From: Gammaproteobacteria bacterium
GTDB taxonomy: Bacteria > Pseudomonadota > Gammaproteobacteria > Pseudomonadales > Pseudohongiellaceae
NCBI GenBank assembly: GCA_030831165.1
Contig: JAURLP010000019.1
Coordinates: 1 to 64,000, forward strand
Reading direction: 5' to 3'
DNA: 64,000 nucleotides
A program made the position numbers and the translations under genes. Shown here one piece after another: positions 24,798-50,438 of this stretch. Numbering within the stretch: the stretch's first letter is position 1; each line of letters begins with the position of its first letter. Below the pieces are notes generated by a model. It made no database searches and was not told the DNA's origin. It saw only the letters and a list, made by a program, of their open reading frames with translations.

Positions 24798-26888
24798 TTA
24801 GCCTTTCATAACTGCTTCAGCAACATTACTCGGCACTTCAGCATATTTAGTAAATTCCATTGTATATGTTGCTCGACCTTGCGTGGCAGAACGTAAATCC
24901 GTGGAATAACCAAACATCTCTGCCAATGGAACTTCGGCGTCAATGACTTTACCGGATGGTGTATCTTCCATACCCTGAACAATTCCTCGACGTCGATTCA
25001 AGTCTCCCATCACATCACCCATATAATCTTCAGGGGTGACCACTTCAACTTTCATGATTGGTTCAAGTAAAGCAGCGTCAGCTAGCAGTGCACCTTTTTT
25101 AAGGGCCATAGAGCCTGCAATTTTGAAAGCCATTTCAGATGAATCGACATCATGGAAAGATCCATCATAAAGTGTGACTTTCATGGCTAACAAAGGATAG
25201 CCTGCTAAGCAGCCATTTTTCATTTGTTCCTGCACGCCTTTATCAACAGCAGGAATGTATTCACGAGGAATCGTTCCACCTACAATTGCATTGACAAATT
25301 CGTATTCTGAATCGGCTGGTAATGGTTCCAGTTTAAGCCACACATGACCATACTGACCACGACCACCAGATTGTTTAACGTGCTTACCTTCAACTTCCAC
25401 GGTTTTACGGATAGTCTCACGATAGGCCACTTGTGGTTTACCGATATTCGCCTCAACGCCAAATTCACGACGCATACGATCAACAAGTACATCCAAATGT
25501 AATTCGCCCATACCAGAAATAATTGTTTGACCTGATTCTTCATCCGTTTCAACTCTGAAAGATGGATCTTCTTGCGCTAGTTTACCTAAGGCTATACCCA
25601 TTTTTTCCTGGTCAGCTTTGGTTTTTGGTTCTACTGCAACGGAAATCACGGGTTCCGGGAAATCCATTTTTTCCAATGTAATTTGCTTATCTTCTGCACA
25701 TAAGGTTTCACCGGTTGTGACATCTTTCAGACCAATCGCTGCAGCTATGTCGCCAGCTAGTACTTCCTTAATTTCTTCACGAGAGTTAGCGTGCATTTGA
25801 ACCATACGTCCGACACGTTCTTTTCTGTGTTTTAAGGGGTTGTATACGGAATCACCCGATTTCAAAGTGCCTGAATACACGCGGAAGAATGTTAAGGTTC
25901 CCACAAAGGGATCTGTCGCAATTTTAAATGCCAATGCAGCAAAAGGAGCCTTATCATCAGCTTCACGGGATTCGATAGTTTCACCATCTTCCAGAACACC
26001 TTGAATAGATTTAACTTCAGTTGGTGATGGAAGATATTCAACGACTGCATCCAAAACAGCCTGGACACCTTTATTTTTGAAAGCTGAACCACACAATGTT
26101 GGCACGATCTCATTGGCCAGAGTTCGAGTACGTAAGCCTAATTTGATTTCATCCTCAGTCAGGGTTTCACCTTCAAGATACTTGTCCATTAATTCTTCAT
26201 TGGCTTCGGCAGCAGCTTCAACCATCTGCTCATGCCATTTTTCAGCTTCAGCTCTCATATGATCCGGAATTTCAGCGTACACAAAAGTTGTACCCTGATC
26301 ATCTTCACTCCAGCGAATTTCTTTCATTTTCACCAGATCGATTACGCCTTTAAATTCGTCTTCTGCACCAATAGCCAACTGGATAGGGATTGGGTTTGCA
26401 CCCAATCTATCTTTCATTTGCTTTACTACTTTTAAGAAATCTGCGCCGGCACGGTCCATCTTATTGACAAACACTAATCGAGGAACTTCATACCGGTTGC
26501 CCTGACGCCAAACGGTTTCAGTTTGAGGCTGTACACCTGAACTACCACAAAGGACCACTACGGCACCGTCAAGCACACGAAGTGAACGTTCTACTTCAAT
26601 GGTAAAGTCAACGTGACCAGGAGTATCAATGATATTAATACGGTATTCTTCAAACTGCTTGTTCATTCCCTGCCAGAAACAAGTGGTAGCAGCAGAAGTA
26701 ATGGTAATTCCACGCTCCTGCTCTTGCTCCATCCAGTCCATAGTTGCAGCACCATCATGGACCTCACCAATTTTGTGAGAAACACCGGTATAAAAAAGTA
26801 CACGCTCGGTCGTCGTGGTTTTTCCGGCATCTACGTGAGCAACGATACCAATATTACGATAGCGATTGATGGGGGTTTTTCTAGCCAC
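24798..26888 (-). CDS. fusA: elongation factor G
   Basis: 696 residues with a GTG start (complement of 26886-26888). GTPase motifs: [19 protein letters not shown] (P-loop), [18 protein letters not shown] (switch II) and [10 protein letters not shown]. Domains II-V follow, with [14 protein letters not shown] in domain IV and [21 protein letters not shown] at the end. EF-G drives translocation and, with RRF, ribosome recycling. It lies 39 bases after rpsG in the str operon, but no tuf follows it, unlike in most gammaproteobacteria. Confidence 0.99.
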
Positions 26889-26927
26889 AGTCTAGACCTC
26901 AATTATTAAGTTGATTACAAAAATATT

Positions 26928-27410
<483 letters not shown>

Positions 27411-27478
27411 TCAGGGTATCCAGGATAAGAATAGTTTTCTTACCTGGCCTTACTGTTATAGATATAGATTAATTGATT

Positions 27479-27853
27479 TTAAGATTTAGGCCGCTTAGTT
27501 CCGTATTTGGAACGACCTTGTTTACGATCGGCAACACCAGAAGTATCCAGGCTGCCTCGAACAGTGTGATATCTCACACCAGGTAAATCTTTTACCCTGC
27601 CGCCTCTAATCAAAACCACAGAGTGTTCCTGCAGGTTATGACCTTCACCGCCAATGTAGGATGTAACTTCATAGGCATTGGTTAAGCGTACACGACAAAC
27701 TTTTCGTAGTGCTGAGTTTGGTTTTTTAGGCGTGGTCGTATAAACACGAGTACACACACCGCGGCGCTGTGGGCAACCTTGAAGGGCTGGCACATCACTT
27801 TTTTCAACTTTACTTCTTCTAGGCTTTCTAACCAATTGGTTAACAGTTGCCAT
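27479..27853 (-). CDS. rpsL: 30S ribosomal protein S12
   Basis: 124 residues, as in E. coli. It contains [19 protein letters not shown] and [27 protein letters not shown], the two loops at the decoding centre. Both classical streptomycin-resistance positions carry lysine, the wild-type state. It opens the str operon, read from the promoter at 27957-27985. Confidence 0.99.
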
Positions 27854-40355: not shown

Positions 40356-41546
40356 TTATTCGATGATTTTAGCTACTACGCCAGCTCCAACTGTACGACC
40401 ACCTTCACGAACAGCAAAACGCTGACCTTCTTCCATCGCGATTGGGGCAATCAGTTCGACCGACATCTTCACATTATCACCAGGCATAACCATTTCTACA
40501 CCATCTGGCAACTCGCAAGCACCAGTTACATCAGTGGTTTCGAAATAGAACTGGGGACGATACCCTTTAAAGAATGGGGTATGACGACCGCCCTCATCTT
40601 TAGACAGGACATAAATCTCACCTTCAAATTTGGTATGCGGTGTAATTGAACCTGGCTTAGCAAGCACTTGACCACGCTCAACGTCTTCACGCTTAGTGCC
40701 ACGTAAAAGAATACCAACGTTTTCACCAGCACGACCTTCGTCAAGCAATTTACGGAACATCTCAACACCAGTACAAGTAGTAGTTTGTGTATCCCTAATT
40801 CCGACGATCTGAATTTCTTCGCCGACTTTAACAACACCACGTGCTACACGGCCGGTAACAACCGTTCCTCGACCTGAAATAGAGAATACATCCTCAATTG
40901 GCATCAAAAATGGTTTTTCAATATCACGCTCAGGCTCAGGAATATACGAATCAAGAGTTTCAACCAGTTTTTTAACAGATGGCATACCTATATCAGAGGT
41001 ATCACCTTCCAACGCTTTTAGCGCAGAACCAATAATGATTGGCGTGTCATCACCTGGGAAATCATACTGGTCCAACAACTCACGAATTTCCATCTCAACC
41101 AACTCAAGCAGTTCCTCATCATCAACCATGTCGGCTTTATTCATGAAAACAACTATATAAGGCACACCTACCTGACGTGACAACAAAATATGTTCACGTG
41201 TTTGTGGCATAGGGCCATCAGCGGCTGAACAAACCAGGATTGCACCATCCATCTGTGCAGCACCAGTAATCATGTTTTTTACATAGTCGGCATGACCCGG
41301 ACAGTCAACATGAGCATAGTGGCGCGCTGCAGAGTCATACTCAACGTGGGAAGTTGCGATAGTAATACCGCGCTCTCTCTCTTCAGGCGCATTATCAATA
41401 CCGGCAAAGTCTACTGCCGTTCCACCCCATGTTTCAGCACATACGCGCGTCAACGCTGCTGTTAATGTAGTTTTACCATGGTCAACGTGACCAATTGTGC
41501 CCACATTTAGATGGGGCTTACTTCTTTCAAACTTTTCCTTTGCCAT
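40356..41546 (-). CDS. tuf: elongation factor Tu
   Basis: 396 residues (E. coli 393). GTPase motifs [38 protein letters not shown] and [10 protein letters not shown] are followed by beta-barrel domains with [13 protein letters not shown] and, at the end, [18 protein letters not shown]. It delivers aminoacyl-tRNA to the ribosome. It corresponds to tufB because it follows tRNA-Thr; it is the only tuf gene in the window. Confidence 0.99.
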
Positions 41547-41632
41547 CGACGATGCCTCCGACTAACTTATTAATAACTATTTATAAACCTGTTTAATACA
41601 CTTTCTTTTTACTATTCTGTGTCAAAGAGAGA

Positions 41633-41708
41633 TGGTGCTCACACCCAGAGTCGAACTGGGGACCTCATCATTACCAATGATGCGCTCTACCACCTGAGCT
41701 ATGCGAGC
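41633..41708 (-). tRNA. tRNA-Thr (anticodon GGT)
   Basis: 76 bases on the minus strand, GCTCGCATAGCTCAGG at the 5' end and an encoded CCA at the 3' end. The anticodon arm CATCA-TTGGTAA-TGATG gives GGT. It is just upstream of tuf, as in the E. coli thrT-tufB operon. Confidence 0.97.
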
Positions 41709-42198: not shown

Positions 42199-42227
42199 AT
42201 TCTATGGGAATTAGCCCTCAGGTGCAA
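42199..42227 (-). promoter_or_regulatory. sigma-70 promoter of the tRNA-Tyr/Gly/Thr-tuf operon
   Basis: On the minus strand TTGCAC (42222-42227) and TAGAAT (42199-42204) are 17 bases apart. The -10 is followed by GCCGCC, a GC-rich discriminator as in stringently controlled tRNA promoters. The -35 overlaps the last codons of the SPOR gene. Confidence 0.8.
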
Positions 42228-43017
42228 TCATTTGACAGAGATTTTCTGATTGTTTTAAGGATGGCTGTGAATTTAGCAAAGTAAGCCATAACTCATCTAG
42301 TTGTGTACTTGTAGCGGACCTAATTACTATCCAAAACTCAGTATTGCTAAGGATGGTTTCCTGAATATTTGTGGCATAACCCTCTGATGCAAGCTCCTCC
42401 TGCAAGGCAAATGCAGAGCTTTGTCGAGTAAAGACTCCTAAAGATATACCCTTGGCCAGATCACCATTCGTAATAAGGAAGCTATCAATTCCATTAGCAA
42501 GCAAATTTGCCAGCGTCTGTCTGGCAGCAGTATCCGATGTAAAAGGCGGCATATAAACTCGATACTCCGATTCAATTTGTTCCTGTAATTCAACTCTAGC
42601 CTGCAGTCCCTGTCGCCTAAGCTCTTCGACTAAAACATTGGTGTCAGTGATATTTTCAAAATCCCCTATGGCAAGGCAGGCTAGACTTTCTTCCTCACTT
42701 TCAAAGCTTGAGAATGATTGAGGTGACATTTCATCTATTGCACTTTCTATTGCGCTTTCTGGACTTTCTGCACTTTCTGCACTTGCTGCACTTTGGGTCG
42801 GAAATGATGCCGTGCTCTCTGTTGCAAGCTCTGCTCTAACGTTTTCAAGGAGCTGCTCATCGGGCATTTCACTCAGTAAAACCAAACTTTGAGGCGCCCG
42901 CTGGATAGGCTCCCTAACAATAACCTTATCTGGACTATCTGAACCCGGCAAAAAGCCCAAATTCCAGGATAAATAAAAGAGGTGCAGTAGCAATAAACCA
43001 ATTACAAAGTTTTTCAT
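42211..43017 (-). CDS. SPOR-domain-like membrane-anchored protein
   Basis: 268 residues. One N-terminal membrane helix (FVIGLLLLHLFYLSWNLGF) is followed by a low-complexity Ser/Ala/Glu linker (about residues 72-95, SAASAESAESPESAIESAID). The C-terminal region has two beta-alpha-beta units like SPOR repeats (ESEYRVYMPPFTSDTAARQ and AKGISLGVFTRQSSAFALQEEL), which bind denuded peptidoglycan in cell division proteins. It overlaps coaX by four bases (ATGA), completing a birA-coaX-SPOR operon as seen in Pseudomonas relatives. The linker is encoded by a 9-base DNA repeat (see findings). Confidence 0.65.
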   Translation of the reverse strand: MKNFVIGLLLLHLFYLSWNLGFLPGSDSPDKVIVREPIQRAPQSLVLLSEMPDEQLLENVRAELATESTASFPTQSAASAESAESPESAIESAIDEMSPQSFSSFESEEESLACLAIGDFENITDTNVLVEELRRQGLQARVELQEQIESEYRVYMPPFTSDTAARQTLANLLANGIDSFLITNGDLAKGISLGVFTRQSSAFALQEELASEGYATNIQETILSNTEFWIVIRSATSTQLDELWLTLLNSQPSLKQSENLCQMIAPEG

Positions 43018-48415: not shown

Positions 48416-48448
48416 TAAAAACGCCACTCAATGAGTGGCGTTTTTTTT
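48416..48448. terminator. terminator after the second amt gene
   Basis: ACGCCACTCA (48421-48430) and TGAGTGGCGT (48432-48441) form a stem of about ten pairs followed by eight T bases. An A-run on the left allows it to work from the minus strand for the gsp remnant as well. Confidence 0.9.
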
Positions 48449-48463
48449 AGTTAAAAAACAGTT

Positions 48464-49830
48464 TTAATCTTGAGCTCGAATTTCTTCAAGGCTTTCTGAA
48501 AACGGAGTGGTTTCTTCTTCGCCAACTTCAATATCTCGACTGATTAAATAGTTAAATCGGTCTGCGGATAAATCGCTGGCACTTTGACTATCACGAATAA
48601 TCGTCGGGCGAATAAAAACCATTAACACTCCTTGGTCATCACCATTGTTGGTCGAACGAAATAAAGGACCAATAGAGGCATACTGCCCAGGAAAGGCACT
48701 CTGGTTTCAGTGTTATCGTATTGATCATCCATCAAGCCTCCCAATATTAGAAACTCGCCATCTTCTACCAGCACATTGGTTGTAATTTCACGCTCAGCGG
48801 TAACGACATCGGCTGTTCCCAACTGGGCAGGCGTTGCCAATAAACTTGATGATTTTTGTTGAATAGTCAGGCGCACCAAAGTGCCTTCACTCACTTGTGG
48901 CGTTACTGTTAATTCGATACCTACTGTTTCACGATCAATGGTTTGGAATGGATTATTGGCGTTATTGTTGGATGAAGTAAAACTACCTGTAATAAAAGGC
49001 ACCTCAGTACCAACGGCAATATAACCTTCTTCATTATCCAACGTGACAATAGAAGGTTGCGATAATACCCGCGTGTTAGCATCAGATTCCAATGCCTGAA
49101 TTAATAAACCAAAGCCTCGACCTTCTGCTGAGTCAAAATCACCACCGCCAATTACCGCTCCCTGAACATTCGCCAGCGCACCAGTAACAGCATCCGAGGT
49201 AGATGACAGATCACCGCTACCGACACTAATTATAGTTGCCAAAAGATTATCAAACTGTGTTAAATAACCGCCGGCTTGTTGATCAGCATAAACCAACTGT
49301 GCACTAAGCCTGGCTGCCTGGTCCTGGGAAATTTCTGCTATCACCGCTTCAATTTGTACTGAAGGACTTAACACTGTTCGCAAAACACCATCCAGCCGAA
49401 ATCTAACGACGGCTTGTTTTTCATAGGGTTCGATGTGTATGTCTGAAGCCTGCTATTTCAGTGCCTCAGCTAATATCGAATTGAGAAGACGTATAATCGG
49501 CGCATCATTTTCTGAATCAAGCAAATCAACTGAGTCTTCTAGTGCAGCAGCTGCCTCTTCCAGATCAACAAAATCTTTTATTCAGGCCATTACCGTTTCT
49601 GAAGATGATTGCTGATTTTGGTAAAGACGAGCTAATAGTTGATCAAATTCCTCATTATCGACCTCTTTCAGAGATAAATTGGCATCATTACAACGAATAA
49701 GCTCAGAAAGCACCCAGTTTTCAAGAGCCTGAGTATGTATCAGCTCAGCCGAATCGGGTCGAACCAGCACTCGATTCAAACGGGCAAACTCATACGGCAG
49801 CAGCGTCAATGATTTGGGTCTATTCAGCAT
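48464..49830 (-). pseudogene. gspE::gspD fusion remnant of a type II secretion system
   Basis: Read from 49830 leftward. The first part is the N-terminus of a GspE-type ATPase: MLNRPKSLTLLPYEFARLN, then [31 protein letters not shown] and LDGVLRTVL. Near 49360 the frame passes straight into secretin GspD ([56 protein letters not shown]). Two in-frame stops, TGA at 49582-49584 and TAG at 49453-49455, each one transition from a sense codon, break the gspE part. One missing base near 48669 shifts the end; in the other frame PLFRSTNN and [13 protein letters not shown] restore the secretin C-terminus up to TAA 48464-48466. Walker A and B motifs of GspE and the N-domains of GspD are absent. It is a decayed pseudogene. 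Confidence 0.9.
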
Positions 49831-50279: not shown

Positions 50280-50438
50280 TTATTCTTCATGCTCTTTTAG
50301 AAACTTTCGAATAAAGTGACGCACTTCTCTTGCTGCACTAGTATCAAGATCATCGCAAAGCTCAATAAAGGCTTCTTTCTCTTCTTTATTCAGCCGAATA
50401 ATCAATTGACTATTCTTTTTCTTTTTTTCTTTAGCCAT
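50280..50438 (-). CDS. small ribbon-helix-helix (CopG/Arc-like) DNA-binding protein
   Basis: 52 residues. The ATG at 50438 is chosen because GGAAG lies a few bases upstream; an in-frame ATG at 50450 adds four residues. A basic start (MAKEKKKKNSQ) leads into a strand LIIRLN, helix KEEKEAFIELCDDLD, then TSAAREVRHFIRKFLKEHEE. This is the beta-alpha-alpha pattern of a ribbon-helix-helix repressor. No toxin partner is seen next to it. Upstream, an 8-base inverted repeat (50490-50510) and a related copy (50541-50550) suggest autoregulation. It has its own terminator at 50151-50182. Confidence 0.7.
   Translation of the reverse strand: MAKEKKKKNSQLIIRLNKEEKEAFIELCDDLDTSAAREVRHFIRKFLKEHEE

Follow-up and report, generated by a model that had tools for sequence, protein, structure and literature searches.

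The 64,000-nucleotide stretch analysed here (the window; positions 1 to 64,000 of contig JAURLP010000019.1, assembly GCA_030831165.1, from a gammaproteobacterium of the Pseudohongiellaceae) carries at 48464-49830, on the minus strand, a pseudogene that was very probably left behind by the deletion of a type II secretion system (T2SS) operon. In its translation the start of gspE runs straight into the end of gspD in a single frame, and the complete orthologous operon, with the order gspE-F-G-H-I-J-K-L-M-C-D, lies beside amt-glnK-amt in three of the four other genomes of the genus. The genome of the window (G000) is a draft assembly of 39 contigs with a completeness of 97.94%, and was compared with four further genomes of the same genus (G001 to G004). 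G000, G003 and G004 are the smaller genomes (2.3-2.4 Mb), and G001 and G002 comprise 2.7 and 3.1 Mb, respectively. An unrooted tree of the five genomes (2670 columns) pairs G000 with G004 and G002 with G003 (supports 99.8/100 and 100/100) and places G001 on the longest branch; the sister relation of G000 and G004 rests on this unrooted five-genome tree. The locus contains the following features:

49354-49830, minus strand: gspE remnant, the first about 159 codons, with two in-frame stops (translation, Pfam, comparison with relatives)
49348-49353, minus strand: gspE/gspD junction (alignment to relatives)
48464-49350, minus strand: gspD remnant, the C-terminal half with the secretin domain, extending to the native stop and missing one base
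49582-49584, minus strand: premature stop TGA in the gspE part, a sense codon in all four relatives
49453-49455, minus strand: premature stop TAG in the gspE part, a sense codon in all four relatives
48672-48673, minus strand: loss of a single base in the gspD part, shifting the frame, by comparison with three intact gspD genes
50283-50438, minus strand: 52-residue RHH-like gene upstream of gspE (Pfam RHH_9 match below the cut-off)
48416-48447, no strand assigned: inverted repeat with T runs, terminator-like by eye, between the ends of amt and gspD

Pfam GSPE_N1E matches 49585-49830 (E 4.4e-13), the first 82 residues of the gspE part, and Pfam Secretin matches 48625-49383 (E 1.8e-36). A profile search of the G000 contigs places T2SSE positions 2-64 at 49330-49515 and Secretin at 48658-49095, and among the matches listed GspD profile positions 338-565 align to the remnant in a single frame. 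Identity to the counterparts in congeneric genomes is 72-85% for the gspE part (four genomes) and 78-85% for the gspD part (three genomes), which is far beyond chance. When compared with the operon proteins of G003, the remnant matches residues 2-161 of gspE and 325-629 of gspD and none of the proteins F to C, and its two ends are thus homologous to the outer genes of the operon in the right order and on the right strand. The join falls on a residue at which Ile 161 of gspE in G001-G003 coincides with Ile 330-332 of gspD, and as judged from the relatives the parent sites share up to 4 nt, a putative ATTG microhomology. A join would preserve the frame by chance in one case out of three, and no meaning attaches to it.

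Beyond the 48673/48672 shift, the gspD frame goes on to its own stop at 48466-48464. The in-frame fusion had been proposed by a sequence-only reading of the window together with two nonsense changes and a one-base shift; translation, Pfam and the relatives all agree with it, its coordinates are exact, and each of the three lesions was located as counted. That reading had also allowed sequencing errors at the three sites as a refutation. In fifteen genes around the scar, located between 37.2 and 56.0 kb, the part matched to relatives shows no stop or frame change, several of these matches being partial where the fetched stretches end or the relatives' starts differ, and the count leaving out weak cross-matches between the two amt paralogues. 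Since these neighbours are clean in the matched part, base-calling errors confined to the scar gene appear unlikely. A match with stops and frame changes between window 41292-41694 and a 134-residue open reading frame of G004 (L046 15149-15553) was dropped as spurious, because most of this frame overlaps, in antisense, the start of a 396-residue gene.

In G001, G002 and G003, gspE and gspD are both complete open frames separated by nine genes. The nine inner genes of G003 were identified with NCBIfam and Pfam as F, G, H, I, J, K, L, M and C, of which F, H, I and C score below the curated NCBIfam cut-offs, M has no NCBIfam match, and M and C take their names from Pfam. This arrangement, which we take to be the Xanthomonas-type T2SS operon (gspE-F-G-H-I-J-K-L-M-C/N-D), has the same genes, order and chromosomal site as the parent of the scar, and the remnant corresponds to its two ends. 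The stretch absent from G000 amounts to 8722 bp in G003, 8715 bp in G002 and 8631 bp in G001 and spans gspE codon ~160 to gspD codon ~331. Compared with the intact operon, the scar thus lacks 8.6-8.7 kb and bears three point lesions in addition, and no secreton is possible.

The amt-glnK-amt side of the locus agrees in all five genomes, and the terminator-like inverted repeat is kept in G000, G002, G003 and G004, the four genomes compared; the labels amt, glnK, DUF1552 and GST for the neighbouring genes are our assumptions. Upstream of gspE, the RHH-like gene and two genes beyond it are common to G000, G003 and G004, whereas two different open frames occupy this place in G001 and G002. In the regions compared, the RHH-like gene has close matches in G003 and G004, a partial one where the G001 region ends and none in G002. 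The expectation of an intact operon between amt and the RHH gene was consequently borne out in G003, and in G001 and G002 it held on the amt side and failed upstream of gspE. With the operon intact beside amt in three of four relatives, the proposal that the operon was removed by a deletion running from inside gspE into gspD stands. Such a deletion of 8.6-8.7 kb, made in one step or possibly in several nested ones, would have created the fusion, probably by illegitimate recombination and perhaps at the 4-nt match.

No second T2SS was found in G000 with Secretin, T2SSF, T2SSE, GspD, GspL and GspK profiles. Secretin matches only PilQ and the remnant, the sole T2SSF match is the gene named PilC between pilB and pilD, and neither GspL nor GspK has a match in the 97.94% complete assembly. 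T2SSE has nine matches, three of which are pieces of pilB and one the remnant; the genome encodes other T2SSE-family ATPases (for example on C34 and C15), with no T2SSF partner besides PilC. One T2SSE-family ATPase frame (G000:C15:29070-29672) contains an in-frame TAG and is another possible pseudogene. Thus, G000 contains neither a complete GspE ATPase in a T2SS operon nor a complete GspD secretin, and in place of GspF, GspK and GspL has PilC only. Of the components considered, the prepilin peptidase GspO/PilD is present, with PilD open at C20 and common to the type IV pilus. Judged from this gene content, type II secretion in G000 cannot work, in line with the loss of the system claimed earlier from the window.

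In G004, the same operon with the same flanks has also been lost, leaving a different remnant. G004 keeps gspE whole together with residues 1-135 of gspF (two of the eleven gsp proteins match its locus), with no match at the locus for G, H, I, J, K, L, M, C or D; unlike in G000, gspE and 135 gspF codons are retained, gspD is gone, and about 0.45 kb with an open reading frame stands instead between the gspF remnant and the terminator-like repeat. The predicted product of this frame (L046 7993-8340) is lipoprotein-like and 115 residues long, and elsewhere in the genus has only weak matches, in G001 and G002. Profile searches of the G004 genome (completeness 91%; the gsp locus itself is contiguous) found no secretin, no GspL and no GspK, and the gspF remnant is its sole T2SSF match. 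The two deletions are separate, because G000 is without the gspE/gspF sequence of G004 and G004 is without the gspD sequence of G000; as read from these retained sequences, neither can descend from the other. The secA gene of G004 shows frame changes that break it into three frame segments, an indication of indel errors in this assembly, and its counterpart of window 42211-43017 is split into two open reading frames where the window has one whole frame. Small lesions and indels in G004 are therefore unreliable, a problem that would extend to small lesions and not to a kilobase deletion.

The loss in G000 appears to be recent. Between G000 and G004, the N-terminal part of gspE has a pN/pS of 0.104 (bootstrap 0.059-0.163), and pairs of functional genes over the same region yield 0.144-0.222; silent sites are near saturation in many functional pairs, and the ratio is used only as distance from 1. 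Since the remnant compared with G004 still shows strong purifying selection, this indicates that the deletion and the point lesions, taken as a whole set, would be recent. The excess dN of the remnant over functional lineages is 0.003 (-0.018 to 0.026; 448 codons), and this absence of a detectable excess is compatible with very recent death. Positions of the gspD part that are invariant in the others changed eight times in G000, nine times in G002, ten times in G003 and 22 times in G001. From these values, selection probably still acted on the gene during most of the period after the G000-G004 split, and the gene may have lain dead for no more than about a tenth of that branch, a rough estimate that sets the upper bound of the excess dN against half the silent divergence of five genes. 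The T2SS would accordingly have been functional until after the two lineages separated and would then have become dispensable in both.

Other accounts of the locus were weighed against the deletion. As G000 is a draft in 39 contigs, the ends of a healthy operon might have been misjoined and its middle lost in binning. We regard such a chimera as very improbable: F, K, L and a full-length D occur nowhere else in the 97.94% complete assembly, two stops and a frameshift in the retained ends are not expected of a healthy operon, and the neighbouring genes are clean. Still less credible is a small functional product, in which the secretin part or the GspE N-domain would remain useful, the cell either tolerating the stops or producing the pieces one by one. 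The gspD part does retain 253 codons of open frame, and the low pN/pS could on its own be read as selection on the fused product. However, the N-terminal half of GspD and the greater part of the GspE ATPase domain are missing from the remnant, two stops interrupt it, the frameshift falls inside the secretin domain, and recent death accounts for the low pN/pS. The remnant is without function, an ordinary dead gene.

The sequence of events leaves more room for a different history, in which point mutations killed the system before the deletion, or the common ancestor of G000 and G004 was already dead. The sequence-only reading had dated the loss of the T2SS to before the point mutations, a dating that does not hold: because all three point lesions sit in retained DNA, they could precede or follow the deletion, and their order is unreadable from one genome. 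In its dead-ancestor form this history is opposed by the gspE pN/pS between G000 and G004, which at 0.104 (0.059-0.163) is not near 1, so that death before the split is disfavoured on present divergence. Overall, we consider it possible and somewhat less than even in probability. Point lesions that arose after the split yet before the deletion are possible and would be a variant of the favoured explanation, the deletion of the T2SS operon in the G000 lineage, and not its opposite.

Beyond the T2SS, type IV pilus genes are broken or missing in the smaller genomes G000, G003 and G004, with different lesions in each. The pilB gene of G000 (L047 5953-7680, corresponding to G000:C20 about 25952-27679) is a pseudogene with two stops, a 5-nt insertion and a 1-nt deletion, and the adjacent pilA, pilC and pilD were matched without stops. 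G000 also has a run of five open frames, the last of which is PilQ (Secretin match) and the four before it presumably pilMNOP. In G003, pilB is found only from about residue 337 on, near a contig start (L064 1-1200, G003:C14), with a frameshift at a different place from those of G000; of pilC only residues 326-409 were found, and the sole secretin is GspD. No pilB or pilC match lies beside pilD in G004 (L063, G004:C1:48000-64000). The prepilin peptidase PilD is open in all five genomes. G001 and G002 each encode four secretins, among them a second that passes the GspD cut-off. A second T2SS-type cluster was observed in both (G001:C5 about 514000-522200; G002:C16 about 104600-112700), with GspD over the cut-off, T2SSE and T2SSF, and GspK below the cut-off.

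The T2SS was thus lost in G000 and G004, and the type IV pilus is broken in G000, G003 and G004. In the smaller genomes of the genus, the loss of the T2SS may belong to a broader disappearance of type IV filament machines. We tentatively propose, as an idea more doubtful than probable, that these machines are being dismantled in parallel and in different orders in the smaller genomes, with the prepilin peptidase going last, and that the losses are possibly driven by selection and not by drift; five genomes are too few to claim a statistical link between the losses and genome size. A shared pressure could be the need to evade pilus-dependent phages, or a life spent entirely in the plankton. Across the family, GspD scores over the cut-off in 83 of 137 genomes, and a GspD match of any strength occurs in 123 of the 137, or in 89 of the 92 better genomes, where a weak match may be a PilQ-type secretin; the T2SS is therefore widespread in the family. 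GspL has any match in 61 of the 137 genomes and scores over the cut-off in 23, a count that says little, since a weak match may come from a related pilus protein and a divergent GspL may have gone unmatched.

Decay of T2SS genes is known from other bacteria. In Shigella flexneri serotype 6, gspC, gspD and gspE of the T2SS cluster appear to be pseudogenes, and the cluster is absent from the other serotypes examined; the authors also caution that such pseudogenes can be functional (PMC11708030). In serotype 6, the cluster is mostly present with predicted frameshifts, whereas the interior of the G000 operon is deleted (PMC11708030). For Escherichia coli B, an extra T2SS has been reported (PMC3446290). 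Our search of the literature on T2SS loss, gsp pseudogenes and fusion, and type IV filament losses found no account of this gspE-gspD scar, which is an ordinary member of known T2SS decay and a case of ordinary reductive evolution. The loss of secretion operons is known, and the intermediate is usually gone. Here, one genus offers an unusually clean set of intermediates, with the scar, three complete operons and a relative with a reciprocal deletion, making the number, independence and recency of the losses readable. Together with the decaying pilus genes, these genomes provide a natural series on the order in which type IV filament machines are lost, which also bears on why the prepilin peptidase outlives its clients.
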